From an uncultured Bacteroidales bacterium (lineage in GTDB: Bacteria; Bacteroidota; Bacteroidia; Bacteroidales; Bacteroidaceae), in assembly GCA_902788275.1 (NCBI GenBank), contig CADAJV010000002.1, forward strand, positions 18,720 through 82,719: a DNA stretch of 64,000 nucleotides. The letters are read 5' to 3'. Position 1 is the first letter of the stretch. Each line of letters begins with the position of its first letter. The position numbers and the translations under genes are program-made. The notes beneath the pieces were generated by a model. The model made no database searches and was not told the DNA's origin. It worked only from the letters and a program-made list of their open reading frames with translations. Positions 1,019-64,000 of the stretch are shown here, piece after piece.

Positions 1019-1151
1019 ATACAGAAATTAAATCTAAGTACAGAAACTAAATCTAATCGCAGGGAAGAAATCTAATCGCAGAACCAAATTCTAATCGCGC
1101 AGGGACGGAATTTAATCGCGTCGAACCGCCATCTAATCGCGCAGGGACGGA
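1019..1151. repeat. 21-bp-phased repeat array A (short member)
   Basis: TAATCGC-type motifs start at 1035 (variant TAAGTAC), 1054, 1073, 1092, 1113 and 1134, giving spacings of 19, 19, 19, 21 and 21. The repeated word is TCTAATCGCGCAGGGACGG. This is the shortest array, with one arm and no AT-rich CTTAGGAATTTT core. The decamer TCTAATCGCG links it to arrays B, C and D. It lies between the convergent symporter and menA genes. Confidence 0.85.
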
Positions 1152-1423
1152 TGCTTCCTACGATTATTTTCTGTCTCCGCTCAAATAAATTTTGCTGATA
1201 TGGATAATCTGCATGTCTTCATACGTCTTGCTTTCGGAAAACCTACACTTTTTCTGTAGTTTTTTCAAGAGCAAAGTTTTCAGGGATATTACCATTAGGC
1301 TTTGTAGGTTTTTGACCTACGAACCTACTAATGGATTGGATGAAGCTGGCGGTGCTCTCTATCTCCAGCTGGGTGGAGAGTGATGGACTGCCTATGCAGC
1401 GATTGTTGTGTTGGCGGTTTCCT
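1152..1423. other. Intergenic stretch with a nested hairpin, no gene seen
   Basis: No convincing gene is present. A nested inverted repeat is visible: CCATTAG (1292-1298) with CTAATGG (1328-1334), enclosing GTAGGT (1304-1309) with ACCTAC (1315-1320). It lies downstream of menA (minus strand) and could end that transcript, but there is no clear T-tract, so the role is uncertain. Confidence 0.4.
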
Positions 1424-2386
1424 CTACAGCAGTGCAAGCGCTGCGCTAAGCAGCAGGCCGAAGATGAGCATATTCCTTGAGGTGAGACCGAGGATGTGGT
1501 TGAGGGCACGGCCCTGGCGGATGCGCACCATCTGGCGCCATGTGTGGATGTGCAATATAAGATAAGGAGTAAGAATTAAGGGAATAAGGAGGATAGACCA
1601 TTGACCATTAATTCCTAACTCCTCACTCCTCACTCCTAACTCCATAAAGAATGTCAGTGCCCATGCAGCTATTCCGCAGGCGAGGTAGAACCTCTGCCCG
1701 AATTTCTCGCCCATCACGGCTATGAGTGTGCGCTTGCCGCTGAGGCGGTCGGTGTCGCGGTCGCGATAGTTGTTGAGGATCAGCAATGTGTCAATAAGCA
1801 CTCCGCAGGTGAAACCTGCAAGCCATGTCTGGCCTGTCAGGGTGCCTGTGGCGGCGAAATGTGTGCCGCACACCGGTACGAGGCCGAAGAACAGCAGCAC
1901 CAGCAGGTCGCCCATGCCGGCATAGGACAGTATGGTGGTATAGAGGAAGGCAAACACTACGCAGGCAGCGCCCAGGGCGACCATTGACCATTGACCGTTG
2001 GCCATTGACCATTGACCATTGACCATTGACCATTGACCGTATATGAGAATGAGGCTGCCACAGATGAGTGCGAGGGCCAGGACTACGGCTATGCCCCATC
2101 GCATGGCGTGGGGGCTGATCCACCCTTGGGCGCAGGCTCGCTCCGGGCCCAGGCGGTCGTCGCGGTCGGTGCCCTTGAGGAAGTCGTAGAGGTCGTTGAT
2201 GAAGTTGGCGGCTATCTGCATCAGCGATGCAAAAAGGGCGCAGATGACCAGCGCGCGCCAGCTGTACCGGGAGGCGCGGGTGGCCAGTGCGGCAGCCACC
2301 ATCACTGGGATGAGGGCGGCGCTGAGGGTCTTGGGGCGCGCGGCCAGAAGCCAGGCGCGGGGACTGTTTTGCTTGATTTCTGCCAT
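1424..2386 (-). CDS. menA: 1,4-dihydroxy-2-naphthoate polyprenyltransferase
   Basis: A 320-aa UbiA-superfamily membrane prenyltransferase of menaquinone synthesis that joins a polyprenyl chain to DHNA. Both Asp-rich motifs are visible: NDLYD at residues 64-68 and NNYRDRDTD at 205-213, among about eight membrane helices. Two low-complexity insertions interrupt loops: residues about 116-136 (QWSMVNG-type heptads, bases 1979-2040) and 250-264 (SEELG...NGQWS, bases 1596-1643). Both come from heptamer DNA arrays (TTGACCA and TAACTCC) that also occur between genes. The -7 box lies 8 bp before the ATG, so the leader is very short. Confidence 0.93.
   Translation of the reverse strand: MAEIKQNSPRAWLLAARPKTLSAALIPVMVAAALATRASRYSWRALVICALFASLMQIAANFINDLYDFLKGTDRDDRLGPERACAQGWISPHAMRWGIAVVLALALICGSLILIYGQWSMVNGQWSMANGQWSMVALGAACVVFAFLYTTILSYAGMGDLLVLLFFGLVPVCGTHFAATGTLTGQTWLAGFTCGVLIDTLLILNNYRDRDTDRLSGKRTLIAVMGEKFGQRFYLACGIAAWALTFFMELGVRSEELGINGQWSILLIPLILTPYLILHIHTWRQMVRIRQGRALNHILGLTSRNMLIFGLLLSAALALL
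1596..1643. repeat. Heptamer array inside menA (TTGACCA plus TAACTCC units)
   Basis: On the plus strand the stretch runs through TTGACCA units and then TAATTCC, TAACTCC and TCACTCC units. It is read in frame by menA as an extra loop. The same heptamers form a non-coding array at 63720-63803 and precede the recF promoter. Confidence 0.8.
1979..2040. repeat. TTGACCA heptamer array inside menA
   Basis: Eight to nine near-perfect 7-bp units (CCATTGA with variants CCGTTGG and CCGTATA) are read in frame. Three units make 21 bp, so the protein shows a 7-residue repeat, QWSMVNG / QWSMANG / QWSMV. The array falls between two membrane helices. Confidence 0.88.
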
Positions 2387-2394
2387 GATGGCTG

Positions 2395-2402
2395 CAAAGT
2401 TA
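2395..2402 (-). promoter_or_regulatory. -7 promoter box of menA
   Basis: The minus strand reads TAACTTTG, matching the Bacteroidetes TAnnTTTG box. Only 8 bp separate it from the menA ATG at 2386. No good -33 TTTG is seen. Confidence 0.6.
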
Positions 2403-2447
2403 CTAATTTTCTTGCCGCGCGAGGTGGTGTGTTTGGCGATATTTGTC

Positions 2448-2455
2448 TATCTTTG
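2448..2455 (+). promoter_or_regulatory. -7 promoter box of the coiled-coil protein
   Basis: TATCTTTG matches TAnnTTTG and lies 30 bp before the ATG at 2486. The -33 element is weak. Confidence 0.55.
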
Positions 2456-2485
2456 CCGAAAATTACTTGGAAATATTATCTGAAC

Positions 2486-3376
2486 ATGAAGAAAAATATA
2501 TGGATCGTGCTGGGAACCGTGGTTGCGCTGCTGTTACTTGGCGGTGCGGGTTACTATATCTATAGCCTCTCATCGCAGCTGACGGAGCAGAAGGAGGACA
2601 ACGCCAAGTTCCGCAAGCTGGCTGAGATGGATAAGAAGGAGATGGAGAACGAGTATGCCCAGTTTGCCATGCAATATGACGAGATGAAGCGCACGGTGAA
2701 GAATGACTCACTGTTGCAACGCATTGAGCAGGAGCAGAATCGCGCCAACGCCCTGCTGGCTGAGCTGAAAAGGGTGAAGAACGACGATGCCGCCGAGATT
2801 GCCCGCCTCAAGAAGGAGCTGGCCACGGTGAGGGAGGTGCTGCGCTCGTATATCATACAGGTGGATTCGCTTAACCGCCTCAATCAGACGCTGCGCGACG
2901 AGAACGCCATGGTAAAGCAGCAGTACACCACAGCCACCACGCAGATCAATACCCTGACGGAGGAGAAGCAGACGCTGACAAAGACGGTGGCCATAGCTGC
3001 CCAGCTCGATGCTACAGGTCTAAGCCTGCAGCCGCAGAACAAGAAGGGTAAAATGGCCAAGAAGACTAAGGATATCACCAAGATGGTTGCATCATTCCGC
3101 ATTTCGCGCAACGTGACGGCTAAGACCGGTGAGCGTCGCGTATATCTCAGGGTGCTCAAGCCCACCAACGAGGTGCTCAACCAGAGTGGCACGTTCAGCT
3201 ATGAGGGCACCAACCTGGGCTACTCGGCTGTCAAGACCGTGGAGTACAACGGCGAGGAAACACCTGTCACCATGTATGTCAACGTTAGTGAGATGCTTAC
3301 CGCCGGCACCTATCGTATGTTTGTCTTCGCCGACGGCCAGATGATAGGCTCCACGTCAGTCACGATGGCGAAGTAG
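2486..3376 (+). CDS. Membrane-anchored coiled-coil protein, unknown function
   Basis: A 296-aa protein read from the ATG at 2486. The open frame extends further upstream but there it is only the reverse of menA; the promoter box at 2448 and the hydrophobic N terminus fix the start. One membrane helix (about residues 5-27) is followed by a long charged coiled coil (about 28-165), a basic linker with KKGKMAKKTKD, and a C-terminal beta-rich domain of about 100 residues. The layout suggests an inner-membrane anchor with a periplasmic stalk. I do not recognise a named family. Confidence 0.8.
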   Translation: MKKNIWIVLGTVVALLLLGGAGYYIYSLSSQLTEQKEDNAKFRKLAEMDKKEMENEYAQFAMQYDEMKRTVKNDSLLQRIEQEQNRANALLAELKRVKNDDAAEIARLKKELATVREVLRSYIIQVDSLNRLNQTLRDENAMVKQQYTTATTQINTLTEEKQTLTKTVAIAAQLDATGLSLQPQNKKGKMAKKTKDITKMVASFRISRNVTAKTGERRVYLRVLKPTNEVLNQSGTFSYEGTNLGYSAVKTVEYNGEETPVTMYVNVSEMLTAGTYRMFVFADGQMIGSTSVTMAK

Positions 3377-3409
3377 AATACTGAAAGAAAAGACCTCTCC
3401 CCAGAGAAC

Positions 3410-3539
3410 ACTGAAATAAATTACCGGAAATTTTTCAGAAATTGTCGTTTGCTTATAGGTCTCTTTCCCAATCTTAGGGGAATGACCGCAAGCCGTTGGA
3501 CAATGAATTTCTGAAAAATTTCCGGTAATTTCTTTCAGT
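3410..3539. repeat. Long inverted repeat between convergent genes
   Basis: Bases 3410-3443 and 3506-3539 are inverted repeats of 34 bp with one mismatch; the inner 26 bp (3418-3443 and 3506-3531) are perfect. An outer pair, TACTGAAAGAAA at 3379-3390 and TTTCTTTCAGTA at 3562-3573, nests around it. The 62-bp loop carries no gene. It could be a bidirectional terminator for the coiled-coil gene and mrp, or a MITE-like element. Confidence 0.75.
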
Positions 3540-3577
3540 CCCTGCTGTTAGGGATAGACTATTTCTTTCAGTAAGTG

Positions 3578-4636
3578 TTATTTTGCCACGTATGTCAGCG
3601 TAGAGGCGAGGCTGAGGAATGCTTGCGCCACTGGGTTGGCTGGGTCGAGGGTGATGGGTTGGCCCTGGTCGCCGCTCTCGCATACTGACTGTACTAAGGG
3701 TATTTGGCCCAGTAGGCGGAGGTCGAGCTGGTCGGCGAGCTGCTTGACGCCGTCACGCCCGAAGATGTAATACTTATTGTCGGGCAGTTCGGCGGGGGTG
3801 AACCAAGCCATGTTCTCCACCAGTCCCAGGATGGGAATGTTGACCTTGTCGTTTTGATACATATCCACGCCCTTGCGTGCATCAGCAAGAGCTACCTTCT
3901 GCGGTGTGCTGACTATCAGGGCCCCCGTAATGTCAAGGGTTTGCATCAGCGTGAGGTGGATGTCGCTGGTGCCGGGGGGTGTGTCGATGATGAAATAGTC
4001 CAGCTCGCCCCAGTTGGCTTCGGTGATAAGCTGCTTGAGGGCATTGCTTGCCATGGGGCCGCGCCATACGGTGGCCTGCTCGGGCTTGACAAAGAATCCG
4101 ATGGACAGAATCTTGATACCCCACTTCTCGGCAGGCACTATGAGCTGGCGGTCGCCCACCATCATGCCCATCGGCCTATAGTCCTCCAGCCCAAACATGG
4201 TGGGCACTGAAGGGCCGAATATGTCGGCGTCCAGCAGTCCTACGCGGTAGCCCAGTTTCGACAGGGCCACGGCTAGGTTGGCGGCTACGGTGCTTTTGCC
4301 TACGCCCCCTTTGCCGGAGGAAACGGCAATGACCTTGGCGTCAGCCAGAGGTTTGAGGGCTGAGGACTGAGGATTGTGGACCGGCTGCTTATAATCAATG
4401 TTTATCGTTACCTCTGCCTCCTTGGCGGCGAAGGTGTGGATGGCGGCCTCGGCGGCTTTGACCACCGACTTCTGGAAGGGGTCGGGGTTCTTGGGGAAGA
4501 TAATGCTGAATGATACTTTGAGGCCATCGATGCGAAGGTTGTCGTCAATCATGCCGGCCTCTACTATGTCTTTGCCGCTGCCTGGGTATTTCACCTGTCG
4601 GAGGGCATCAAGTATGAGTTGGGGATAAAGAGACAT
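3578..4636 (-). CDS. Mrp/NBP35-type iron-sulfur cluster carrier ATPase
   Basis: A 352-aa protein with an N-terminal MIP18/DUF59-like domain (about 1-80), a linker, and a P-loop ATPase domain with the deviant Walker A GKGGVGKST at 108-116. The family delivers Fe-S clusters to apoproteins in the cytoplasm. The C-terminal CPxC pair of many homologues is absent; the region reads ENMAWFTPAELPDNKYYIFG. The linker HNPQSSALK (about 87-95) is encoded by a GGCTGAG/GACTGAG/GATTGTG heptamer run, another in-frame repeat insertion. It lies 27 bp downstream of trmB, probably in the same operon. Confidence 0.92.
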   Translation of the reverse strand: MSLYPQLILDALRQVKYPGSGKDIVEAGMIDDNLRIDGLKVSFSIIFPKNPDPFQKSVVKAAEAAIHTFAAKEAEVTINIDYKQPVHNPQSSALKPLADAKVIAVSSGKGGVGKSTVAANLAVALSKLGYRVGLLDADIFGPSVPTMFGLEDYRPMGMMVGDRQLIVPAEKWGIKILSIGFFVKPEQATVWRGPMASNALKQLITEANWGELDYFIIDTPPGTSDIHLTLMQTLDITGALIVSTPQKVALADARKGVDMYQNDKVNIPILGLVENMAWFTPAELPDNKYYIFGRDGVKQLADQLDLRLLGQIPLVQSVCESGDQGQPITLDPANPVAQAFLSLASTLTYVAK

Positions 4637-4663
4637 TTTTTAAGGTTAAAGGGTTTTACGTTG

Positions 4664-5512
4664 TTATTTAGCCTTGCTCAGCGATGAGCGCTTGCTGCGG
4701 GCATAGCTGCGGTATGAGTCGAGCTCAATCTCTACATCGGGCTCAGTGAGCACTGTGGAGTGGGGGAGCCGGAAACACATATATTTAATAGGTATGTCGC
4801 GGTCGAGCCACTGCTGTTCATAGTAGGTCTGGATTGAGCGCGCCACATCTGGTAGCGGTCCTTGTACTTGGTTGGCTCCATACAGATCGGTGGTGCTTAC
4901 TAAGGGCACGATGGCATTGCGCTGCATGACATAGTTGGTGTAGGTGAAGAGAAAGTTGCTGTCGGTCTTCACGTGGACGAGTCCCTCGTCAACGAGGAAA
5001 CGGCGATAGCGCTCCAGAAAGTAGGTGGAGGTAAGCCGCTTGGTGGGCTTCTTCATCTGCGGGTCGCTGAAGGTGAGCCATAGCTCGCTCACTTCGCCCG
5101 GGGCGAAGAAATTTTCAATAAATTCTATACGGGTGCGTACGAAGGCCACATTCTTCAGTCCCAGCTGAAGCGACTCGGTGGCACCGGTCCACATGCGGGC
5201 GCCCTTGATGTCGATACCGATGAAGTTCTTGTCGGGATAACGCTGGGCCAGCCCCACGGTATATTCGCCACGGCCGCAACCCAGCTCCAGCACTATGGGA
5301 TTGTTGTTGCCGAAAAAGTCGGCATCCCATCTGCCCTTGAGCTTGAAAGAGAACTGGGGCATCATGCCTTCTCTTCCAGACTTGGACACAGCTTCCTCCA
5401 TCATGGAGGCGGACTTGGATGTTGATAGGGGGGGCATCATACCCCTTTCGGGTTCAAAGACATGGGGGTATGTTGCCATGTCAGCGAACTTAGATAGTTT
5501 GTTTTTTGACAT
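4664..5512 (-). CDS. trmB: tRNA (guanine-N7-)-methyltransferase
   Basis: A 282-aa SAM-dependent enzyme that makes m7G46 in t[19 protein letters not shown] is the SAM-binding motif and [10 protein letters not shown] fits the family. Compared with my recollection of Bacteroides TrmB, about 30 extra residues lie near positions 20-50, bounded by two similar words, PERGMMPP and GREGMMPQ. The DNA there contains a CCTCCATGATGGAGG hairpin (minus strand) and repeated GGGGCATCAT-like words, resembling the REP-like elements elsewhere in the window. First gene of the trmB-mrp pair. Confidence 0.93.
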
Positions 5513-5531
5513 CTATTGTTGCTTTTAAGTG

Positions 5532-5539
5532 CAAAATTA
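5532..5539 (-). promoter_or_regulatory. -7 promoter box of trmB
   Basis: The minus strand reads TAATTTTG, 19 bp before the trmB ATG at 5512. It fits the Bacteroidetes TAnnTTTG box. Confidence 0.55.
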
Positions 5540-5593
5540 CGTTGATTTTCCAAATAAATGTGTGTTTGTGGTGACTATTTCTTAATAAATGAT

Positions 5594-8931: not shown

Positions 8932-11457
8932 ATGAAAAAAACTATCTTATTATTGTTTGTTCTTAACTTTATCTACGTTGCAGCATTTGCGAAAGTAGAT
9001 GCGTTGAAGGAGTATAGTAAATTCATGCAGCGCATAGACAAAACTATCAACAAATCGCACAATGATTCAGGATTCTATACTATGCAATATAAAGTTAATC
9101 CTGAAAAAATGGACTCTATAAAAAAAATATATAATGAAAAGGCCTCTGGATTAGCAATAGAAGTCGTAAAATGGTCGGAACAGGAAGTTGATTTCATAAT
9201 ACCGGACGAATTTCTTGGCTATTGCTATAATAGTCTCAACCTGAATGGGGCTCCTTTTTCCGATATAAAAAATAAAGGAAAGGCATTTGTCGTTCGTGAT
9301 TTAATTTCCAATACAATTCTAAAAGAAATAGAAAATATTCACTGGAGTGGTGAGGTGGTAGATGGGAAGTTACATGGAGAGGGCGTTGGAATATATAGAC
9401 TACGTGGAATAGTGCGCAAAGGGATACCCACCATGGGCGAATTATGCATTATCAAAGGGAAGTTTGATCATGGTTATCCAGTAGGGAAATACAACATACA
9501 AATGTATAATTATGACAATGACCAAAAAATAGGGAGATTCATAGTTGAATCAAATGCGGTAATTTCTGAGTTTAAGGATAATTATGCCACAATAAGATTC
9601 AACCAAAATCCCTTTACATTTGTCTTCAACAAAAATGGTGAAGGAGGCCTTTCAGAGGAATCGAAACGGCAACTTATGTACACAGTACCGGGCTCGGTTA
9701 CGGAAGGTTATAGAAGATATTTTTTCTCGCAGAATGTTAATTCAGACCCAATTTACTTTAGCCCGGATAGTATGCTGCTATCCGGATTGCCCATTGAGTA
9801 CTTTTACCATAAAAAATATGGTGATATTTATGAAGGTGACCCCACTGATGACATTAATTATTATGGCCCAAGAAGTGTAAGAATCGCCAAGGGTTTTTAC
9901 GATAAAAATCCAGGTTTGTTTCAGAATGCTGTAGATAAATTAGCAGGAATTGGGCTTTTTGGTGGTGTTATAGAAGAAATTAGCCTTGATTATAAAATTG
10001 ATGATGGCCTGTATGAATGGAGGACTCGGATATTTGCTACTTATCTTAAGTATGATAAATCCTCTCCCGAAAAGAAATTAGATTTCATACTTGATAAAAA
10101 ACTTGTAGAGATTCGCAAGGGTAGAGATTTACGTCAAGATGAAAATCGGAAATACAAAATGGTAGATTGGGAGAAAAAATATGTAGACCCTGTGCTTAAC
10201 GCAAGGAACGTGGTAATTGATGATGAGACGAAAGAGACGGTTGACATAAAAAAAACGCTATTAGATTTATGCTCTAAAGCTGGCAGATTAAGAGATTATG
10301 CTTTTATTTACGAAGACAAAGAAGGAGTGGACGAGGAAGCTTTGCAAAAAGAAATTGCCGAAATAGAACGCCAAAAAACAGAGGCAAGAGAAAAGAGGCA
10401 GGCAGAAGAATATGCTTTTCTTGTACAATACACGCCAGAACAGTTAATGGATAAATATGGGTTTGACAGAAATAAGAAATACGCGGTGCGTGATCAATGG
10501 GCTATTTATCACGATGTGTATGATTTTGTTAAAAATGCTGGTAGAGAAGGTTCTAATTATCCTTTCGATGACCTTCATCCTAAAAAATGGTATACACTTT
10601 CGGACTTTAAAGAGCTTTGGGAGACAGCCCAATATAGGACATACATGGCGTCACTTCCTATCAAATTAGAAAACTGGTATAAAAAACACGAAGTGCCTCC
10701 ACTTGAGATATCTGCGGTGCGGGTACATCGAAGAGGTGGATGGGCTAGTAGCTTGGCGATGATGATGGGGGGAGACGCAATGCCTTATTACTATCATGGA
10801 ACTACACCACCTGTAAATGTAGGTTACGTTAGCGAAAATGATATGCGCATATTGTTAAGCGGCATTGCTCTGGCAGAAAAAATAACCCCTAATCTCTTCA
10901 GTATATTACAGACCGAAGAGAACCTGTATTGGGGTTTTGAGGAGAACGACCATATTCAACGAAAGCAAATTAGTAAAGAAGACTCCTATAGGGAATTTAT
11001 GAGAAAAGCAATAGGTATTGCACAAAAAAAAGCCGAAACAGAAGACCATCCCGAATACTACTTAGCTGCTGCTAAATTTATTAAAGAACGTCTAGATACT
11101 ATAATAAAAGTAACAGAGGATTTGAAACCTCTTTGGAGGGGGGTTCAGAGTGATAGAGCAGATAGAATGAGGGCAGAAAGAAGCGTTAAGTGCGATAACT
11201 GCAAAATAGACGGAGACAAAACAACATTTCCTAAAGGGTGGTCAGAAGGCTTTAGTTCTTTCTTCTTAAGCAAGCCTGGTGAGTCTGAAGAAGCAGGAGA
11301 AATTGTGTTTAAAAACGGACTTAGGCTAAGATGGAAATATATTGAAGACGATGACAAAGTTAGAGTTAAAGACCTTTCAAATGGAACACTCTATGATAGG
11401 GTGGATGACATGGTAATAAAAATGATCGAATATTGTAAAAAAATGTATTGTGATTAG
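8932..11457 (+). CDS. Large exported protein with MORN-like repeats, unknown function
   Basis: 841 aa with a signal peptide (about 1-21). Residues about 140-200 hold MORN-like units (HWSGEVVDGKLHGEGVGIY and KGKFDHGYPVGKYNIQMYN). A charged coiled-coil stretch (EEALQKEIAEIERQKTEARE) begins near 465, and the C-terminal half has no family I recognise. Codon use is strongly AT-rich, unlike its neighbours. The gene sits in an island bracketed by copies of the TPR gene 3' end and splits a cluster that is usually contiguous, so horizontal acquisition is likely. Confidence 0.8.
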   Translation: MKKTILLLFVLNFIYVAAFAKVDALKEYSKFMQRIDKTINKSHNDSGFYTMQYKVNPEKMDSIKKIYNEKASGLAIEVVKWSEQEVDFIIPDEFLGYCYNSLNLNGAPFSDIKNKGKAFVVRDLISNTILKEIENIHWSGEVVDGKLHGEGVGIYRLRGIVRKGIPTMGELCIIKGKFDHGYPVGKYNIQMYNYDNDQKIGRFIVESNAVISEFKDNYATIRFNQNPFTFVFNKNGEGGLSEESKRQLMYTVPGSVTEGYRRYFFSQNVNSDPIYFSPDSMLLSGLPIEYFYHKKYGDIYEGDPTDDINYYGPRSVRIAKGFYDKNPGLFQNAVDKLAGIGLFGGVIEEISLDYKIDDGLYEWRTRIFATYLKYDKSSPEKKLDFILDKKLVEIRKGRDLRQDENRKYKMVDWEKKYVDPVLNARNVVIDDETKETVDIKKTLLDLCSKAGRLRDYAFIYEDKEGVDEEALQKEIAEIERQKTEAREKRQAEEYAFLVQYTPEQLMDKYGFDRNKKYAVRDQWAIYHDVYDFVKNAGREGSNYPFDDLHPKKWYTLSDFKELWETAQYRTYMASLPIKLENWYKKHEVPPLEISAVRVHRRGGWASSLAMMMGGDAMPYYYHGTTPPVNVGYVSENDMRILLSGIALAEKITPNLFSILQTEENLYWGFEENDHIQRKQISKEDSYREFMRKAIGIAQKKAETEDHPEYYLAAAKFIKERLDTIIKVTEDLKPLWRGVQSDRADRMRAERSVKCDNCKIDGDKTTFPKGWSEGFSSFFLSKPGESEEAGEIVFKNGLRLRWKYIEDDDKVRVKDLSNGTLYDRVDDMVIKMIEYCKKMYCD

Positions 11458-16070: not shown

Positions 16071-16217
16071 TATCATACTTCCTCGGCCCTACGGGTCACT
16101 ACCCCTATCTTAGGGGGAGAGCCAGGTTGGTCAAACTTACTTGCCTCATGCCCAATGGCTTGCCGGCTCCTCCTCTAAGATAGAGGGGGTGGCCCGTAGG
16201 GCCGGGGGCGTATGAGA
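16071..16217. repeat. REP/MITE-like inverted repeat element
   Basis: Arms of about 50 bp at 16071-16123 and 16164-16217 are roughly 85% complementary, each with a CTAAGATAG...GGG core, a CCCGTAGGGCC hairpin, and TATGA (TCATA on the left arm) at the outer end. The spacer is about 40 bp with no gene. A one-armed relative lies at 22529-22582. Confidence 0.75.
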
Positions 16218-16230
16218 GTAACTTTTATAG

Positions 16231-16792
16231 TTGCGCACTGCTGCAATTAAACTGCGCACTGCTGCAATCAAACTGCGTACTCGTGTATCTTAACTCCGAA
16301 CTCTCGCAATCAAACTGCGTGCTCGTGTATCTTAACTCTGAACTCTCGCAATCAAACTGCGAGCTCCTTCTAAAATTCCTAAGAAGTTTTAAATTATTCC
16401 TAAGAAGTTTTTGAAAATTCTTAAGGAATTTTAGATTATTCCTAAGAAGTTTTTGAAAATTTCTAAGGAATTTTTAATTATTCCTAAGGAATTTTTAATT
16501 ATTTCTAAGGAATTTTCAAGCGAGTTCGCGTTTAGATTACGGGCCGTTGCGTTTAGTTTTCGTGAGTACGCTATTAGATTTCGTGAGTACGCGATTAGAT
16601 TTTGGCTCTTCGGGATTAGGGGCTTTGAGCTTGCTTCCGGCTGTTCCCTTGTGTGAGATGATGTTTGCCGTGGCTATATAAAAGTTTGTCGCGGCTATAA
16701 AAAAGTTTGCCGCGACCACAAAATAGTTTGGTGTTACCACAAAATAGTTTGGTGTGACCACAAAAAGGTTTGCTTCAGTCACAAAAAAAACG
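16231..16792. repeat. 21-bp-phased repeat array B
   Basis: About 27 consecutive 21-bp units with almost no slippage. The order is a left arm (CTCGCAATCAAACTGCG type), an AT-rich core at about 16368-16520 (TTCCTAAGAAGTTTTTGAAA and TTCTTAAGGAATTTT types), a right arm with CGCGATTAGATTTTGG and CGTGAGTACG, and a third type (TTTGCCGCGACCACAAAATA). It lies between the convergent tonB and SPOR genes. Open frames through it are by-products of the 21-bp period. Confidence 0.92.
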
Positions 16793-31535: not shown

Positions 31536-32075
31536 TCAGCTAACTGTGAACCACAGCAGTCTAACCACCTTCTCCCGTAAAATAATAGCGTTCTCCTGCA
31601 ATCTAACTCAGTGCTCCCGCAATCTAACTCAGTGCTCCCGCAATCTAACTCAGTACTCCCGCAATCTAACTCAGGGCTCCCGCAAAAACTCCTTAGGAAT
31701 CGTGAAAAATTACTTAGGAATTTTAGAAAATTACTTAGGAATTTTAGAAAATTACTTAGAAATAATTAAAAATTCCTTAAGAGTTTTTGAAAATTACTTA
31801 AGAGTTTTTGAAAGTTCCTTAAAAATTTTTGAAAGTTCCTTAGGAATTTTCACGGGAGGTCGCGATTAGATTGCGGGAGGTCGCGATTAGATTGCGGGAG
31901 CACTGAGTTAGATTGCGGGAGCTCGGCTTTAGATTTCGTTTCGGCGAGTTATGGTTTCATCTTCATGTGTTATGGTTTCATCTTCATGTGTTATGGTTTT
32001 ATCTTCATGTGTTATGGTTTCATCTCCACGTGTTGTGGTTTCGTTTCTACTCGATTAGGGTCCAGCTCCTCGCGG
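31536..32075. repeat. 21-bp-phased repeat array C
   Basis: About 26 units of 21 bp. The left arm repeats CTCCCGCAATCTAACTCAGT five times. The core at about 31685-31850 repeats ATTACTTAGGAATTTTAGAA variants. The right arm carries GCGATTAGATTGCGGGAG twice and one near-exact reverse complement of the left unit (GCACTGAGTTAGATTGCGGG). A third type, TTATGGTTTCATCTTCATGT, repeats about five times. Placed between the divergent thiS and nrdD genes. The 7-residue periodic frames are artefacts. Confidence 0.93.
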
Positions 32076-32396
32076 CAATATTTTGTTTCTGCGAGTTATG
32101 TCTGTTTCTGGCCGGGGTGAGCGGGCGCGAGATGCGGATTTTTTGCTGGGAAGATATAATATAATAATGTTCGCGTGTACATATTTATTATATGCTGGTC
32201 CCCTGTTGTTTGCGGTGCGCGGGTATGTGTCCGTGGTTGCAGATAAAAATATTTGTGAACGGCGTTTGGAGGACGAAGTTTCCCAAAATGTAAAGTTATA
32301 GTGCTGATTTGCAGCGGTTAGCACAAATTTGGGTGCTGTGAAGTTTTCCAAAAAGAAATTTTTGTTGTAAAATTTTGGAAAATTCTTGAAAAACAT
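32076..32396. other. Intergenic tail between array C and the nrdD promoter
   Basis: AT-rich DNA with no supported gene or strong hairpin. Short A/T tracts (AAAATTTTGGAAAATTC near 32370) precede the nrdD promoter. Confidence 0.5.
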
Positions 32397-42445: not shown

Positions 42446-42560
42446 ATTTTAGTAGTTAAGAAGTTAAGAAGTTAAGAAGTTAAGAAGTTAAGCCGTTAAG
42501 AAGTTAAGCCGTTACTCATGACTATTGTCTTCTAACTCCTTCTATCTCCTTATTTCTTCT
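42446..42560. repeat. GTTAAGAA octamer array between folP and the cyclase gene
   Basis: At least seven 8-bp units (GTTAAGAA with GTTAAGCC variants) run from about 42453 to 42512, followed by TCTAACTCCTTCTATCTCC-type words. They lie in the leader of the cyclase gene. Confidence 0.8.
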
Positions 42561-47888: not shown

Positions 47889-47975
47889 CACTACCTATTT
47901 GAAATTTGAAATTTGAGCTTTGAGATTTTCCTCTATTCTCTGTTCTTTGTTTTCTATTCTCTGTTTTCTAAATCA
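47889..47975. repeat. Heptamer runs in the dsbD leader
   Basis: TGAAATT, TGAAATT, TGAGCTT, TGAGATT and then TCTATTC, TCTGTTC, TTTGTTT, TCTATTC, TCTGTTT, TCTAAAT, all with a 7-bp period, lie between the dsbD promoter and its ATG. Confidence 0.78.
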
Positions 47976-48044: not shown

Positions 48045-48570
48045 GCGAAGCCCGAAATTATGCGCGCGTGTATAATATATGGTCGCGTGCGCGAGGAAAA
48101 TAAAGCCGAGCTCGAGGAAAATAAAGCCGAGCTCGTCAACTTTATCTCCGTCGAGCCGCAACCTAAACGCGAGCTCCTGCAATCTAATCGCGTGCTCCTG
48201 TAATAATTACTAAGTAATTTTCAAAAGCTCTTAATGAATTTTTAAAAATTTCTAAGGAATCTTCAAAAACTTCTAAGGAATTTTCAAAAATTCCTTAGGA
48301 ATTATTTAAAATTCTTAAGGAATTATTCAAAATTCTTAAGGAATTTTCGCAGGAGCTTGGCTTTAGATTATAGTTCCACGCGTTAAGGCTTCGTTTTCAC
48401 GCGATTAGGCTTCGTTTCCAGGCTATTAATTTTTTTTTTCTCGCTATTAAAAAATTTATTCTCGCTATTAGGATTCGGCTCCACGCGATTGCGGATTTTC
48501 TTTATATGTTTGCGGATTTTCTTCACTTGATTTCGGATTTTCTCTACACGATTTTGCGTTGTGCTCTTGG
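48045..48570. repeat. 21-bp-phased repeat array D
   Basis: About 25 units of 21 bp. The left arm has CGAGGAAAATAAAGCCGAGC twice and CCTGCAATCTAATCGCGTGC. The core at about 48200-48345 repeats CTTAAGGAATTATTCAAAAT variants. The right arm has CACGCGATTAGGCTTCG. A third type repeats TTTGCGGATTTTCTT. Only one slip, in a T run near 48430, is seen. It lies between two minus-strand genes (upstream of dsbD). Confidence 0.92.
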
Positions 48571-48727
48571 GTTTTGCGGTGCTGGTGGATTGGCCGGAGG
48601 CGCAGGAGAAAGATTTCTTACTGTAAGGAGACAAAAAAAAATCCGGCCTGTGCTTCTCAGCGAGGGCCGGAGGGGATTTAGCCATGCATGTTCAAACTTA
48701 AATTTTGTGTATGTGTGATTTATTCTT
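48571..48727. other. Intergenic stretch downstream of the 335-aa gene
   Basis: Contains AAAAAAAAATCCGGCCTG and AGGGCCGG words that can pair as a hairpin (minus-strand CCGGCCCT ... AGGCCGG followed by a T-tract), a plausible terminator for the 335-aa gene. No gene is seen. Confidence 0.5.
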
Positions 48728-49735
48728 TTAGTAGCGTATTTTTTTTATCAGTTTTTCCATTTTGTCGGTTGTCTTCTGCGCCTGCTTGTGCAGCTTGCGC
48801 AGGCGCTGGTTGATATGGCGGCGCTCACCGGGATTGTGGACGTTGTCTTTGTACTGCTGCTCCAGGGTATTGATCTGGTCTTGTTGCATTTCCAGCAGTT
48901 GTTTATAGGCATTGAGCTTCTTTGCGATAATGCTTTGCTTCGTTATGACGGCAGGCGACCATCCGGCCACGTCCTTTGAAATGCGGAGCCCGTCAGGAAG
49001 TTTGTCCATGTCTTTGCGGAATTTCTCCATATCGATTTTGTATATCTCCATGCCTTGCTTATATTTCTCCATGCCTTGCTTATATTTCTCCATACCCTGC
49101 AGGTATTTGCTCATATCAAGCTCCGCAAGACACGTGTCAACACCAATTGTGGTTATCTCCGGCATTCCGTTGTTCGAACTGAAGGAAAAAGAAAAACTCT
49201 TGTTTTCTTTCTCCATGAGGTCGGGGCGCAGGGATGTGATCATGTAGATTTTGCCTTTTATTACATCGCCATCTTTCTCCCACAGCAGGGTGTAATTGTC
49301 GCGCAGCCGTGGATTGTTGTTGTTCTTGACGTTGATGTAGTAGTAGCCCTGATTGTCTTGTGTGCGGGTTATGATGTACTTGTCGGGAGTGTCGCCTGTA
49401 CAAATTCTGAATGTGTCTTTGTGGCCGGGCTCATAGAGTCCGTATTGATAGCTTAGGGGTGCATCTTTTTCAAATGCTTGTCTGGCATCTCTTATGACAT
49501 GTTTGTATTCCTCTACTTGAAAGGTATAGACTTTAACGGAGTGTTCTATTGAATTGTCTGTGGCATTCCGTTTCTCTTCAAGGAGTGTTTCTGAAGGAAC
49601 TTGGTACCATCCGATGATGTCATCAAACACAGCAATCACGTTGGTGGGCGGAGTGGACGGTGCTTCATCAACAGGTGTTGCGTAGCAGCCCAGTGTAGCT
49701 GCGAGGAGTGCGATTGTCAGGATTCTTGTTTTCAT
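48728..49735 (-). CDS. Exported protein with tandem 7-residue repeats, third gene of the ECF sigma cluster
   Basis: 335 aa; signal peptide about 1-20. A beta-rich central part is followed at about 210-245 by heptads GMEKYKQ, GMEKYKQ, GMEIYKI, DMEKFRK and DMDKLPD, then a basic helical C terminus. The heptads are encoded by near-identical 21-bp DNA units at 49018-49105, the same period as the non-coding arrays. Function unknown; it follows an ECF sigma factor and a membrane partner. Confidence 0.75.
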   Translation of the reverse strand: MKTRILTIALLAATLGCYATPVDEAPSTPPTNVIAVFDDIIGWYQVPSETLLEEKRNATDNSIEHSVKVYTFQVEEYKHVIRDARQAFEKDAPLSYQYGLYEPGHKDTFRICTGDTPDKYIITRTQDNQGYYYINVKNNNNPRLRDNYTLLWEKDGDVIKGKIYMITSLRPDLMEKENKSFSFSFSSNNGMPEITTIGVDTCLAELDMSKYLQGMEKYKQGMEKYKQGMEIYKIDMEKFRKDMDKLPDGLRISKDVAGWSPAVITKQSIIAKKLNAYKQLLEMQQDQINTLEQQYKDNVHNPGERRHINQRLRKLHKQAQKTTDKMEKLIKKIRY

Positions 49736-58614: not shown

Positions 58615-61600
58615 ATGAAAAGAAGCATCCTTTTTCTCTTGTTGTCAGGCTTGTTCTTTCTCAGCGGAAGTGCTGACAATGTTGCCGAAACACCAGCCAG
58701 CCTTTTGTTACCCAAGCCCCATAGCTTGGTAGAGACATCAGCATCCTTCAGCCTCAGTAGGGCAGTGCGGCTAACCGACCCTACGGAGTCTGCCTTGCTG
58801 GCCTCACTCTTTACCGTAAACGACGCGGCTTCGGCAACGGTGACAGTCAATATTGTAAGTGATTCTGACCTTGGTACCTTTGACTACACCTTGGCGGGGT
58901 TTCCCAATGAAGGCTACAAGTTGAAAGTAGAAGCCGACGCCATCACTGTCACAGCAGCCTCTAAGACGGGTGTGATACGCGCCGCCCAGACCCTGCACCA
59001 GCTGGCAGCTGCTGCCGACGGGGCCTACATTCAGGGTGTGGAGATAACAGACTGGGCGGCCTTCAAGTTGCGCGGTTTCATGCATGACGTAGGGCGTTCC
59101 TTTATCAGTTTCGACGAGTTGAAGAAAGAGATTGATCTCTTGGCCCGCTTCAAGGTTAACACCTTTCACTGGCACCTTACCGACAACCAAGGCTTCCGCT
59201 TTGAGTCGAAAGCCTACCCACAGCTCAACACTGCCGCCAACATGAGCCGCTTTGCCGGCAAATATTACACTCAGGCGCAGTGCACTGAGCTTGAGGCTTA
59301 CGCTGCGGAGCGTGGTATCATTGTTATTCCGGAGATAGACATGCCTGGCCACTCCACAGCATTCACCAATGCCATGGGTTATAATATGAGCAGCACCCAG
59401 GGGAGGGCAGCTCTCAAGACATTGCTCAGTGAGCTGGTTGCTGCCTTCCCCAAAGCCCCCTATATCCACATGGGAGCTGACGAGGCTGGCACTACGGCAG
59501 AGTTTGTTAACGAGATGTCGAAGTATATCAAGGAGACCCTGGGTCGCCGTTGCATAGTGTGGAACCCCATCAGCGGTGTGACCATCAGCACTGCCAACCT
59601 ACCCTACATTGATATGACTGAGATGTGGTCAACCAGTGGACGCAAGATAAGCGGCGTACCTAATATTGACTGCCGCTACAACTATGTCAATCACTTCGAC
59701 GTGTTTGCTGACCTTGTAGGCATATACAAGAGTAACATATACTACGCTCAACAGGGCAGCAGTGAGATAGCCGGAGCCATTACCGCCCTATGGAATGACC
59801 GCAAGACTCCTACAGAGACCGATATAATAAGTCAGAATAACCTCTATGCCAACGCCCTGGCCACTGCTGAGCGCGGCTGGATGGGCGGTGGTAATCAGTA
59901 TATAGAAACCGGTGGTACTACGCTGCCTAACAGCGGTTCTGAATTTGATGAGTTTGCCGACTGGGAACGGCGCTTCCTTTTTTTCAAGAATTTATGGCTC
60001 AGCTCTGAACCCATTCCTTATGTCAGGCAGACCAACGTGAAGTGGCGCATCACTCAGCCTTTCCCTAATGGCGGCGATGCTACGGCCAGCTTCCCACCCG
60101 AGGAGAGCACGGCAGATATACTGCCCTCTACCTTTATATATAATAACAAGACCTACTCTGCTTCCACGGCTACAGGTGCAGGCATATATCTGCGCCATAC
60201 ATGGGGCTCCACAGTGCCGTCCTTCTTCAGTGACCCGCAACTCAACACCACTGCCTATGCCTGGACCTATGTCTATTCGCCTACGGCCCAATCAGCCGGA
60301 GCGCTTATAGAGTTCCAAAACTACGGCCGCTCAGAAAATGATAAGGCTCCCGATGCAGGCAAATGGGACCGCAAGGGCTCGCGTGTCTGGCTCAATGGGC
60401 AGGAGGTGCTACCGCCTGCATGGACCAACACCGGCAAATCTATTAACAGCGAGGTCAATCTGACCAATGAGAACTTCGCAGCCCGTACTCCTGTCAGTGT
60501 GCAGCTTAAAGAAGGATGGAACAAGGTGTTTCTCAAACTGCCCTATGTCAGCGCTAATGGCGTGAGACTCAACAAGTGGCTCTTCACCTTTGTGCTTACC
60601 GACACCGAGGGGCGCAGTGCCCTCCCCGGTCTTGTCTATTCGCCCATACAGAGCGCTGATCCTAATGCTGATGCCATAGTGGAGCTGACCGGCACCATAC
60701 GCCAGTATGTGAGCGAGGTATGCTCTGATAGTCCCGGCTATTACCCTCTCTCTGCAGCAGCCTCCCTCATGGCCCTCGTTGACGAAGTAGAGGCTTCCTT
60801 ACAAACTGAACTTAGTGCAGCTGAGCGGGAGCAGCAGGTGCAAGAATTGCAGACGGCCTTTGACGCATTTAAATCCGGATTGAGCAGCCAGACTCTCACC
60901 ATGCCCAAGGTCAGCACGGCAACCAGCGTCCATTACTACTCATTATGTACTCCTCTGCGAGGTACACGCTATGCTACATCTAACGGCGCTGCTGCCGAGG
61001 TGGCCGGTATCACCACACCTTCAGCTGCATCTTACTGGAAATTCATTGAGCGTGCCGATGGTACATACGACATCGTTAATGTTTCTGATGGCTCCTACCT
61101 CTCTCCGGCATCCTCCAACAATACCGTGCTCCATACTCAGGCTGCCTCACCCTCTGCGGGATGGACCCTCAAGGCTGCCGATGCTTTGGGTTACCTTATT
61201 ATTACTTCTACCCTAAACAACTGCCAGATTAACCAGACCAACATGGGTAGCTCTGCCCCTTCTGGCGGTTACAAGATTTACAACTGGGGCGGGGGTACCA
61301 ACACAACCGACACAGGTTGTAAATATCGTATAGAGGAGGTATCGGCAGATGATATTCCCGAGGTTTTGTCTTCTACGGCGCTCGATGAACTGTCTGATAT
61401 GATAGTCAATGTGGCGGCTGAGCCGGCGGCTAATCTTGCTGTTGGCCAGTGGTATGTGATGTTTGACCGTGGTGCCAATCATGGCTACCTCTATGAGAAC
61501 GCTACCTCACACACTCTCTACAATACTGCCGCTGCTCCCTCAGGTTTGGCAGTAAAGAATGCCAAATATTTGGTACGCCTGCAGAGTGCTGCCGATGGCA

Positions 61601-63606
61601 AATACTATCTCCAAACAGGATTCGGCAACTACTTTGGCAAGATAGAGAAGTCGGTCAACGTGCCAGTCACGGCCACCGCCAAGGAGCCCCTAACCATTGC
61701 CAAGATAAACAATACTGCCGGCCACTACTATGTGCAAGGTGCCTCGGGTATCGTGCTTGACGCCAACGACCTTACCCTCGGCGACTCCCGTGCCACCGTG
61801 GTGGGGTGGGCCAATACGCCACCTACCGCCACAGGAGGCAATAACGACTGGGCCTTTTATCCAGTCAGCCTTGATGACATGGCAGGTCTCTCATTCACAG
61901 CCGACGAAGTGACAGTCTGTCAGGCTCACCAAACAACAGGTATCGGTAATGCCAGGCAGGCTCTACTGCGTATCAAACTCACCCCTTTTGCCAAGTTCAC
62001 TCCCACGGCAATCAATATCAGTCTCAGCGGGGCAGACCAGATAAGCGGGCTTAGCGTCTATACCACAACCATCGACCAGCTACACGCGCCTGGAGCTAGT
62101 TCCAATAAGCTGGCTACACTCACCGAGCTAGCCGATGGTCCGCTGACAATAACCCTCTCACCCTCAGCCCATTCCGCCAATCAGACTCTCTACTATTGGG
62201 TTACTGCAGATATCAAGGGTGATGCTCAGGAATGGGCTGCGGTGGATGCAGCTGTTACTTCCATAGATTATAAGGCGGGAGCAGACCTTAACAGCTGCGA
62301 CCTCTCGGCCAAAGGCAACCCCGATGGCCAGATGCGACTCTTCAAGCGACAGCAGTTTCTTTGGACAGCCTCGCAGAGCCAGGCTAAGTATTATCGCATT
62401 CCCACTATACTCAGTACTCTCGACGGAGGACTAGTGGCCTTTGCCGACGATCGCTACGACAATACCCAGGACCTCGGCAAGGTGGCCAGCGGAGCCGCAG
62501 GCCCACACAAGGTTGACGTTGTGATGCGGAAGAGCCTTGATGACGGCGCAACATGGGATGAGCCTATAGTAGTAGCTGCCGGTGACGGCACCTCAGAGGC
62601 AGCCTGCGGCTATGGCGACCCAGCCGTAGTGCGCACACCGGGCGGTAAGCTCATCTGCCTAATGGCAGCAGGCTCCAAGTCCTTTCCATCCGGCATGCTC
62701 CACATGGGCTATTCCGAGAGTCTTGACAACGGTGCCACATGGTCGGCACCAAGAGACATCTATCCCTCAGTCAACAAGAGTGGCCTTGCCATCACCTCGG
62801 CCTTTACCTCGGCGGGTAAGGGTGTGACCTTTGCAGATGGGCGGGTGGCATTTGCAATGAATGCTACCGTCAGCGGCACCACCAATGAATACATAATCTA
62901 TTCCGATGACGAAGGAGCCACATGGACTATTGGCCCCAACAAGGCATGTGCTTCTGCAGACGAGTCAAAACTTGAGATAATGAACGATAGCAGCTTACTG
63001 CTCTCTGTGCGCCAAGGCGGTTGGAACGGTATAGCCAACCGGGCCTATGCCCGCACCACCGGATCGGCCCTCGGCAATGGCATCCTCAGCTGGGGAGCCA
63101 AGGGCTATTGGACCGACCTCAATGCTAACGGCTGCAATGCCGATATCTTATACTACAGCCGCTCCACTCAGGGCGAACGCGATCTGCTGCTCCATACCGT
63201 TGTGAAGAACTTCCAGACCTATCGCCGCGACTTGCGTCTCTACATGAGCTTTGACGAGGGCAAGACATGGGAGGAGGCTTTCCAGCTACAGCCAGGCTTC
63301 GCTGCCTACAGCTCCATGCAGCGGCTTGCCAACGGCGACCTTGCTATCATATATGAGGATGGCTCTCTCGGCAATCAGGACAAGATGGACTGCTATGCCA
63401 TCAATTATGTTGTGCTCAGCCAAGAACTCATAGCATCTCGCGCACAACAACTGCATCCCGAAGACCCCGACGGAGTATCTGGGCTTGGCAGAGACGCTGA
63501 TAATCAGGCAGAGACCCTGACATATTACGACCTTTTCGGCCGTAACATAGCTTCTCCGCAGAAAGGCCAAATCTATATCAGGGGAGGAAAGGTGGTTCTT
63601 TTCTGA
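58615..63606 (+). CDS. Bifunctional beta-N-acetylhexosaminidase (GH20) and sialidase (GH33)
   Basis: 1663 aa with a signal peptide. An N-terminal GH20b-like domain (about 40-140) precedes the GH20 barrel (from about 148) with the catalytic pair D289-E290 in HMGADEAG. After that come a FIVAR-like helical region (about 700-765), two ricin/beta-trefoil-like regions (about 770-910 and 935-1070) and a sialidase N-domain (about 1095-1220). The GH33 propeller follows from about 1250 with YRIP (R1261) and four Asp boxes: SLDDGATW, SLDNGATW, SDDEGATW, SFDEGKTW. A C-terminal tail (YYDLFGRNIAS) resembles surface-sorting tails. It should trim sialic acid and GlcNAc or GalNAc from host glycans. Confidence 0.93.
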   Translation: MKRSILFLLLSGLFFLSGSADNVAETPASLLLPKPHSLVETSASFSLSRAVRLTDPTESALLASLFTVNDAASATVTVNIVSDSDLGTFDYTLAGFPNEGYKLKVEADAITVTAASKTGVIRAAQTLHQLAAAADGAYIQGVEITDWAAFKLRGFMHDVGRSFISFDELKKEIDLLARFKVNTFHWHLTDNQGFRFESKAYPQLNTAANMSRFAGKYYTQAQCTELEAYAAERGIIVIPEIDMPGHSTAFTNAMGYNMSSTQGRAALKTLLSELVAAFPKAPYIHMGADEAGTTAEFVNEMSKYIKETLGRRCIVWNPISGVTISTANLPYIDMTEMWSTSGRKISGVPNIDCRYNYVNHFDVFADLVGIYKSNIYYAQQGSSEIAGAITALWNDRKTPTETDIISQNNLYANALATAERGWMGGGNQYIETGGTTLPNSGSEFDEFADWERRFLFFKNLWLSSEPIPYVRQTNVKWRITQPFPNGGDATASFPPEESTADILPSTFIYNNKTYSASTATGAGIYLRHTWGSTVPSFFSDPQLNTTAYAWTYVYSPTAQSAGALIEFQNYGRSENDKAPDAGKWDRKGSRVWLNGQEVLPPAWTNTGKSINSEVNLTNENFAARTPVSVQLKEGWNKVFLKLPYVSANGVRLNKWLFTFVLTDTEGRSALPGLVYSPIQSADPNADAIVELTGTIRQYVSEVCSDSPGYYPLSAAASLMALVDEVEASLQTELSAAEREQQVQELQTAFDAFKSGLSSQTLTMPKVSTATSVHYYSLCTPLRGTRYATSNGAAAEVAGITTPSAASYWKFIERADGTYDIVNVSDGSYLSPASSNNTVLHTQAASPSAGWTLKAADALGYLIITSTLNNCQINQTNMGSSAPSGGYKIYNWGGGTNTTDTGCKYRIEEVSADDIPEVLSSTALDELSDMIVNVAAEPAANLAVGQWYVMFDRGANHGYLYENATSHTLYNTAAAPSGLAVKNAKYLVRLQSAADGKYYLQTGFGNYFGKIEKSVNVPVTATAKEPLTIAKINNTAGHYYVQGASGIVLDANDLTLGDSRATVVGWANTPPTATGGNNDWAFYPVSLDDMAGLSFTADEVTVCQAHQTTGIGNARQALLRIKLTPFAKFTPTAINISLSGADQISGLSVYTTTIDQLHAPGASSNKLATLTELADGPLTITLSPSAHSANQTLYYWVTADIKGDAQEWAAVDAAVTSIDYKAGADLNSCDLSAKGNPDGQMRLFKRQQFLWTASQSQAKYYRIPTILSTLDGGLVAFADDRYDNTQDLGKVASGAAGPHKVDVVMRKSLDDGATWDEPIVVAAGDGTSEAACGYGDPAVVRTPGGKLICLMAAGSKSFPSGMLHMGYSESLDNGATWSAPRDIYPSVNKSGLAITSAFTSAGKGVTFADGRVAFAMNATVSGTTNEYIIYSDDEGATWTIGPNKACASADESKLEIMNDSSLLLSVRQGGWNGIANRAYARTTGSALGNGILSWGAKGYWTDLNANGCNADILYYSRSTQGERDLLLHTVVKNFQTYRRDLRLYMSFDEGKTWEEAFQLQPGFAAYSSMQRLANGDLAIIYEDGSLGNQDKMDCYAINYVVLSQELIASRAQQLHPEDPDGVSGLGRDADNQAETLTYYDLFGRNIASPQKGQIYIRGGKVVLF

Positions 63607-63651
63607 GAATTATGTCTGCAAGCTATTCTATAAGTGGGGTCTTATAGCCAA

Positions 63652-63690
63652 GCCCCGGCGGAGTGTTCTCCGCCGGGGCATTTTTTTTGG
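63652..63690 (+). terminator. Intrinsic terminator of the GH20-GH33 gene
   Basis: GCCCCGGCGGA pairs perfectly with TCCGCCGGGGC across a 6-nt loop, followed by A and eight T residues. Confidence 0.94.
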
Positions 63691-63719
63691 GTAATATTCA
63701 ATAGTCATGAGTAACGGCT

Positions 63720-63803
63720 TAACTCCTAACTCCTAATTCCTAACTCCTAACTCATGACTAACTCCTAACTCCTCACTCCTAACTCCTAACTCCTAACTCC
63801 TAA
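63720..63803. repeat. TAACTCC heptamer array
   Basis: About eleven 7-bp units, TAACTCC with TAATTCC, TCACTCC and TAACTCA variants, run almost without interruption. The same units occur in menA and before recF. The DNA from 63804 to about 63940 shows no gene. Confidence 0.88.
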
Positions 63804-63944
63804 TATAGATGTTGGTACAGATTACTCATAATGCAACCAATTCTGACTGCGTTAGTTGTATGTTTATTGCATAGCAGCGTTGATTAGAATAGACATAAGA
63901 ATTTTATTCCGAGTCTTTTGCGTGATCATTGCCTAAGTTTAATC

Positions 63945-64000
63945 TAATCCCCTTGAAAAAAGTTTTAACTCCGTGGAAAAATAAACTAACTCCGTGGAAA
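63945..64000. repeat. Start of 21-bp-phased repeat array E (cut by the window edge)
   Basis: TAATCCCCTTGAAA, TAACTCCGTGGAAA and TAACTCCGTGGAAA begin at 63945, 63966 and 63987, exactly 21 bp apart. TCTAATCCCC resembles the TCTAATCGCG decamer of arrays A-D. The rest lies outside the window. Confidence 0.75.

Follow-up and report, generated by a model that had tools for sequence, protein, structure and literature searches.

Mirror-symmetric arrays of 21-bp units in the intergenic DNA of an uncultured Bacteroidales bacterium

Described repeat systems and the arrays of the window

Tandem units set in helical phase, some of them palindromic, are found in plasmid iteron origins and in centromeres such as sopC, and the ends of Mu- and Tn7-type elements carry several inward-pointing transposase-binding sites of approximately 22 bp. 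The cis-immunity of Mu is described as strongest within about 5 kb, fading between 5 and 25 kb (PMC7350765). The BIMEs of Escherichia coli, about 600 per genome, are dispersed chromosomal repeats, one of which was shown to impede the diffusion of supercoils (PMC6907758, PMC2817692).

The DNA analyzed here (64,000 nucleotides; referred to as the window) comprises bases 18,720-82,719 of contig C2 of a draft genome of 2.48 Mb (93 contigs, 87% complete), whose source is referred to as the host. The nearest named records of the host NrdD protein come from uncultured Bacteroidales, many of them from animal guts, labeled as Prevotellaceae, Bacteroidaceae, Porphyromonadaceae or Muribaculaceae.

The window contains three large arrays, B (16225-16791), C (31538-32104) and D (48056-48580), built in a 21-bp frame from about 25-27 units each. 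Lag 21 is the autocorrelation peak in all three (0.59-0.70, vs means near 0.28 for lags 5-109). A scan of the whole window for periods of 21, 42 and 63 bp retained only B, C and D at a threshold of 0.45; at 0.42 a fourth, gene-internal region appeared. The sequence TCTAATCGCG, with at most one mismatch, occurs 15 times in the window (3.4 expected). Many 7-bp tandem repeats are also present in the window.

Array B consists of (i) a left arm of seven 21-bp units aimed at the core (16225-16371, forward strand), (ii) a core of seven palindromic units, AAAATTCCTWAGGAATTTT plus 2 bp (16372-16518, 147 bp), and (iii) a right arm of inverted units (16519-16791, reverse strand), which are clear up to position 16623 and continue as degenerate 21-bp units to 16791. 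It is placed between a TonB-type gene (+) and a SPOR-domain gene (-). Array C has a left arm of seven units (31538-31684, forward), a core of eight palindromic units (31685-31852, 168 bp) and an inverted right arm (31853-32104, reverse), and is flanked by the thiE gene group (-) and nrdD (+). In array D, a left arm of six units (48077-48202, forward) is followed by a seven-unit core (48203-48349, 147 bp) and an inverted right arm (48350-48580, reverse); its neighbors are a DsbD-like gene (-) and a gene without a family match (-). Array A (1020-1151, forward), located between an SNF-type transporter gene (+) and menA (-), is a half array of approximately six arm units, with boxes at 1052, 1071, 1090, 1111 and 1132 (the first of them 19 bp apart), and has neither a core nor a right arm. 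The neighboring genes are thus convergent at A and B, divergent at C and co-directional at D. The last repeat, at 63942-64000, comprises three units at the very end of contig C2 (position 82,719), and lies within the left part of a dispersed, MITE-like element (element E; 63801-64000, forward), which reads TAATATAGATGTTGGTACAGATTACTC... and is cut by the contig end.

The sequence-only reading of this DNA had reported five large arrays, A to E, separated by 15.2, 15.3, 16.5 and 15.9 kb. These distances are correct, as are the 21-bp units and the size given for B, C and D; A proved to be a short half array and E part of a mobile element, and the mirror symmetry and palindromic cores, absent from that description, are added here.

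Mirror plan and comparison with known classes

Eight arrays with a core of the same type (type I) follow one plan, in which left arm units ATCTAATCGCGTGCTCCCGCA lead to the palindromes AAAATTCCTWAGGAATTTT plus 2 bp, followed by inverted arm units. The profile of the left arms correlates with the reflected profile of the right arms at r = 0.92 at shift 0; for the 20 remaining shifts the absolute value does not exceed 0.28. The large arrays are in-register dyads, whose polar 21-bp arm units converge on a palindrome core. This core has seven units in seven of the eight arrays and eight in array C. Positions T9 and A11 are invariant among the 57 type I core units. Since core units are barely more alike within arrays than between them (identity 0.76 for adjacent units vs 0.73 between arrays), a recent duplication does not explain why their number is constant. 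The arm units are locally homogenized (0.58-0.64 for adjacent units vs about 0.48 between arrays).

Four further core types were distinguished, with unit counts made by eye: type II (approximately AATTCAASTTRAATT; 4, 4, 4, 6, 3 and 5 units, plus a single related unit), type III (AACTCCCGCGGGAGTT; 22-bp units, seven in each of two arrays), type IV (AATTCAATATGAATT; seven units in one array) and type V (TTTTCTTAGCTAAGAAAA; 22-bp units, four). The arrays of contigs C19 and C57 look like near-duplicates in this set. Seven units are present in 10 of the 19 cored arrays inspected, type I included. Types I, II and IV have a common pattern, about AATTC-N5-GAATT, which places the half-site AATTC about once per helical turn. 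Several small arrays are coreless, and their arms abut.

Both arms were called at 21 host loci: all arm pairs are in exact dyad phase at 11, some at four and none at six. Among these six, two contain 22-bp cores and another misses the phase by 1 bp. In the sister species, G016, exact phase was found at two of eight such loci; the remaining six include one with a 22-bp core and two that miss the phase by 1 bp. The large host arrays hold strictly to the dyad symmetry, which is looser elsewhere. The dominant non-coding period in 13 sampled host contigs is 21 bp (35 loci, including a few 7-bp runs); a period of 22 bp was found at three loci, and each of the periods 17-20 and 23-25 at 0-3. It had been proposed that a bound protein would meet every unit on the same helical face. 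This fits the large host arrays with their exact dyad phase, but the 22-bp units of some cores, which account for arm distances of 152 bp (7 x 22 - 2) and 86 bp (4 x 22 - 2), depart from a strict 21-bp frame, so that it is the local geometry, and not 21 bp itself, that is kept.

The arrays share with the BIME and REP sequences of E. coli and its relatives a dispersed, intergenic, palindromic and species-specific character (PMC6907758, PMC2817692), and the BIME, which impedes supercoil diffusion, is their nearest working analogue (PMC6907758). They differ from these elements in their 21- or 22-bp frame, single dyad, polar arms and counted core, as well as in the avoidance of short distances and the sharing of orthologous positions. 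REP palindromes measure about 20-40 bp and alternate in orientation, whereas the asymmetric 21-bp arm units point inward from both sides. Like plasmid iterons and sopC, the arrays are composed of helically phased tandem units, some palindromic; unlike these, they occur in many copies over the chromosome, have mirror arms, and no replication or partition gene was found among the flanking genes run against family libraries. CRISPRs were rejected (the units are contiguous and diverged, with no spacers), and so were coding tandem repeats (seven of the eight type I cores have stops in all six frames, and in array C one frame is open) and structured RNAs (no compensatory changes, and no Rfam family at gathering score in the three stretches searched, where every match fell below it and concerned either miRNA-hairpin families or one sRNA). 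Terminal inverted repeats together with a target duplication, as in MITEs, were found in element E only. The tested features of BIMEs, CRISPRs, coding and RNA repeats, and, except for E, of MITEs are lacking, and no such arrays are described in the titles or abstract openings of the open-access literature searched.

Spacing, gene context and occurrence in relatives

Array loci were called with an arm profile trained on the eight type I arrays, which at a threshold of 16 found no locus in a dinucleotide shuffle of 800,772 bp and which misses one array found by its period (C1:71235); matches within 400 or 700 bp of each other were counted as one locus. Every contig on which a type I core was seen is among the 13 large host contigs tested. 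Since element E ends many contigs, counting it there favors even spacing; the strictest test, restricted to arrays, with E and all loci within 1 kb of contig ends excluded, avoids this bias.

Short distances between arrays are missing in both the host and G016, and in G016 the spacing is clearly even. In the strictest test, the host (30 loci, 18 spacings, median 15.9 kb) has no spacing below 7.5 kb, vs 5.8 expected (P 0.00025). Its evenness is borderline (CV 0.63 vs 0.86, P 0.057), so the effect in the host is chiefly the lack of short distances. This persists when the contig of the window is omitted (0 of 15, 4.7 expected, P 0.003; P for the CV 0.13). In G016 (14 contigs, 614,601 bp; 34 loci, 20 spacings, median 13.2 kb), none of the 20 spacings is below 7.5 kb (8.0 expected) and the CV is 0.28 vs 0.81, neither value being reached in 8000 simulations. 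The ten G016 contigs added last, which were chosen after the places of arm matches were known on several of them and hence are not a blind sample, give P values of 0.03 and 0.005 from seven spacings alone.

Other locus sets concur. When every array is counted together with the two ends of element E, no spacing is below 7.5 kb in the host (47 loci, 34 spacings, 13.8 expected) or in G016 (37 loci, 23 spacings, 9.5 expected). Profile thresholds from 12 to 25 in the host and from 14 to 25 in G016 lead to the same conclusion, the lowest host threshold giving a single spacing below 7.5 kb. When E is omitted and contig-end loci are kept, the counts are 0 of 25 (9.2 expected) and 1 of 24 (10.3 expected), respectively. 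A random-intergene null, run on earlier locus sets and with the first gene caller, which misassigned gene contexts, gave 0 of 25 (9.7 expected) for the host and 0 of 12 (4.3 expected) for G016. Adding 20 small host contigs (75 loci on 33 of the 93 contigs, 44 spacings) resulted in three short spacings vs 22.6 expected, a count open to the contig-end bias of element E. On contig C84, outside the spacing test, an array lies 4.3 kb from an element E.

The sequence-only reading had taken the even spacing to suggest a chromosome-scale role, a view to be abandoned if distances were exponential or arrays absent outside the window. In the sample covered, arrays are present elsewhere and their placement is non-random; the fixed ruler of 15-16.5 kb is local to contig C2. 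In the host, spacings as short as 3.4 kb and as long as 62 kb occur, with gaps of 43, 44 and 62 kb, the last of which holds one array of different units.

No array center falls inside a called gene. Convergent neighbors are found at 14 of 30 host loci with both neighbors called (8 of 38 loci, at contig edges, having been dropped), vs 22 of 168 other gaps of at least 150 bp (P 8e-5), and this bias is unchanged with longer-gene sets. In G016 the corresponding values are 9 of 16 vs 7 of 41 (P 0.005), or 7 of 16 vs 8 of 43 when only genes of at least 300 bp are considered (P 0.054). Gene calls inside arrays were removed for these tests, being small false genes that made array D look convergent; the caller used missed menA beside array A. 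The convergent bias may be mere promoter avoidance. The flanking proteins that could be identified are mutually unrelated.

Matches to the arm model number at least 150 in the host and at least 162 in G016, with 41, 33, 23 and 8 in four further genomes (G013, G011, G008 and G012) and 2 and 1 in two more; 11 of the 19 genomes of the genus have none at an E value of 0.1. Among 201 genomes from 30 genera of the family, only five species, all of this genus, gave matches (E 0.001, stricter filters). The absence of arm matches from the 11 genomes and from the 29 other genera sampled indicates that the role of the arrays is not essential for such bacteria. Period scans revealed some 21-bp arrays in G011 and none in G009 (80 kb), G023 (100 kb) or G027 (80 kb). 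A similar scan of 80 named relatives (threshold 0.47) yielded 13 stretches, and several of the 10 listed look gene-internal or like 7-bp repeats. Short 21-bp arrays of other sequence were seen in L152, L159, L161, L196 and L230. The type I core was not recovered from other species: an 18-mer with one mismatch gave 106 matches in 60 relatives vs 137 for the reversed control, and the core model gave only weak matches outside the host, the best of which (G016 C37) is a 7-bp repeat.

The positions of the arrays stay while their sequence, even that of the core palindrome, differs. Six of the seven comparable G016 arrays share their position with a host array; the remaining sampled G016 arrays have no aligned host flank. 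Contig C43 of G016 is collinear with host C2 in inverted order, and its arrays at 10981, 22826 and 35479 sit in the gaps orthologous to those of C, B and A, respectively. The array at C3:36341 corresponds to host C9:44249, and that at C1:43763 to host C1:113588 (by one flank only); C3:57001 has no host partner. The median identity of 70 aligned host and G016 proteins is 92%, and the arrays at B and C hardly align. In one case, G016 C105 and host C3 (23.3 kb) could be compared throughout the arms and core: both span 493 bp, with no net indel and 78% identity, yet one has a type IV and the other a type I core, each of seven units, with all seven palindromes differing in type.

Proposed role and rival explanations

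We propose, with a probability of roughly 0.4, a role for the arrays as nucleoprotein sites of the chromosome, with effects like those of topological insulators or loop anchors; the role suggested by the sequence-only reading, as domain borders or protein-loading sites, was likewise inferred. A protein assembly starting on the core and growing outward would be consistent with the half-sites of the palindromes, the polarity of the arms, the register and the spacing. A dimeric DNA-binding protein would occupy the core palindromes, and the same or a second protein would extend outward over the polar arms, giving a two-sided complex on one face of the DNA. Such complexes, typically 12-16 kb apart, may anchor loops or limit how far supercoils spread, as the BIME topological insulators do in E. 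coli.

As the binder, HU-family proteins would be considered first. Two host HU-HIG genes (C3:23627-24214 and C4:39192-39782) are located within 60 bp of an array, and another is located beside the G016 array at C105. Of six HU loci on the 13 host contigs, three are within 1 kb of an array (P 0.058) and two within 150 bp (P 0.034), in a post hoc comparison. This link is a weak lead. HU families occur in all 19 genomes of the genus, so that their presence alone explains nothing, and HU-HIG counts do not track the presence of arrays. Intrinsic curvature is an unlikely driver, as it is only mildly raised (median 67 in arrays vs 52 in other intergenic DNA; arbitrary units).

The main and serious rival for the spacing, although we consider it unlikely to be the correct explanation, is transposition immunity. 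The arrays would be remains of, or riders on, mobile elements, their units transposase-binding sites as in the ends of Mu or Tn7, and a bound transposase would hold new copies several kb off. The exclusion zone of several kb known for Mu resembles the depletion below 7.5 kb (PMC7350765), and element E carries a small 21-bp dyad array. E has MITE features: inverted ends, many copies and a length too short for a transposase gene. Its copies start with GGTAATRATATAGATGTTGGCACAGATTAC and end in the inverse of this sequence, with this array in the center, and the copy on G016 C46 has ACAATTTT on both sides (read by eye), a probable target duplication of 6-8 bp. The query 63801-64000 has at least 40 matches in the host (92-100% identity; 60-74 candidates) and 22 in G016 (18 of at least 88 bp, up to 97-98% identical to the copy of the window), and none in the other 17 genomes of the genus. 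Among the 40 host matches listed, 33 lie within 360 bp of a contig end, two are internal and five are on contigs with no end distance assigned.

The spacing agrees with immunity; the insertions of E disagree with it. Of 55 distinct E ends, the profile places 7 within or next to arm arrays (inspection by eye adds two), vs 43 of 558 random intergenic points; this is about as often as at random, which also led us to reject a targeting of arrays by E. Ends inside arrays speak against immunity, because immunity should forbid them. In addition, (i) E-type patterns in C2:14000-82719 occur only near 82.6 kb and none is present at arrays A to D, which were thereby rejected as MITEs, (ii) the positions of large arrays are common to two species and (iii) the array is the central cargo of E, and is not terminal as are the sites of Mu and Tn7.

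An improbable alternative is that the arrays are segregation or nucleoid-occlusion sites, bound across the chromosome by a partition protein or a Noc/SlmA-like protein. Such a function would agree with the layout of the tandem palindromic cores, which resembles that of plasmid centromeres, and with the presence of array loci on 30 of 33 scanned host contigs.

There is even less to be expected of the proposal that the arrays act as RNA or single-stranded hairpins, for instance as two-way terminators between convergent genes. The predicted RNA fold of array B is strong (-134.3 kcal/mol, z = -8.1) and the convergent gene bias is in keeping with termination. Despite this fold, the lack of left-right matching and of compensatory change argues against hairpins: position-matched left and right units seem to match little better than units of different arrays (0.56 vs 0.54), and complementarity exceeds that of shuffles in none of nine palindrome pairs. 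The fold is thus not accompanied by covariation, the Rfam search described above gave no family at gathering score, and hairpins would need neither register nor spacing. Neutral satellites, arising by slippage and gene conversion and tolerated only between genes, have a similarly slim chance: the local homogenization of arm units and the 7-bp repeats of the window suit them, but the spacing beats the random-intergene null, and slippage is not expected to give a mirror register or the recurrent number of seven in core types I, III and IV.

Returning to the nucleoprotein sites, there is a wider and rather doubtful reading, in which the chromosome of this Bacteroidales lineage would be divided into units of about 12-16 kb by mirror-symmetric nucleoprotein arrays. 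Their position, dyad phase and core count would be under selection, the core palindrome would be swapped en bloc, and the sites would co-evolve with a binding protein of changing specificity. If this were true, the arrays would parallel, in bacteria, the fast-evolving satellites of centromeres. In any case, the exchange of all core palindromes at one shared site, where their number and register persist, is an instance of concerted evolution that needs an explanation. The barriers of supercoil loops in E. coli are described as apparently randomly placed, and their identity as open (PMC6907758). Fixed, sequence-defined and mutually spaced sites, if the arrays are such, would make the question of what bounds these loops directly testable.

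Dispersed repeats around the arrays

The MITE-like element at window 63801-64000 (sequence stretches L264, L265 and L266) has at least 40 scored, near-identical matches in the host genome, most of those listed being located at contig ends. It is also present in the sister species G016 and has no match in the remaining 17 genomes of the genus. At about 43.3 kb of host contig C16 (L244), an interrupted copy of the element is followed by a frame judged by eye to be transposase-like. A distinct dispersed repeat, with the parts CCTCTATCTTAGAGGGGG and GGCGTATGAGAGTAACTTT, lies near arrays and this element (window 16100-16230; also stretches L244, L282 and L253).

Other periodic sequences

Tandem repeats with a period of 7, 8 or 14 bp occur at window 1609-1643, 1979-2038, 42454-42508, 47897-47970 and 63720-63803 (units TAACTCC, GACCATT, AGTTAAGA and ATTTGAA); similar heptamer runs are present on further host contigs and in G016. 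The weaker 21-bp periodicity (TATTTCTCCATGCCTTGCTTA) at 48873-49211, within an open frame (48728-49735, minus strand), is probably a coding repeat. Other Bacteroidales MAGs carry four-unit, 21-bp palindromic arrays of a different sequence (AATTTACGWCGTAAATT type; L196:9524-9610 and L159:8724-8810), one of the two directly upstream of nrdD.

HU-HIG genes adjoining arrays

Two arrays are directly adjoined by HU-HIG genes (host stretches L085:3627-4211 and L089:19192-19779), which may possibly be autoregulated.
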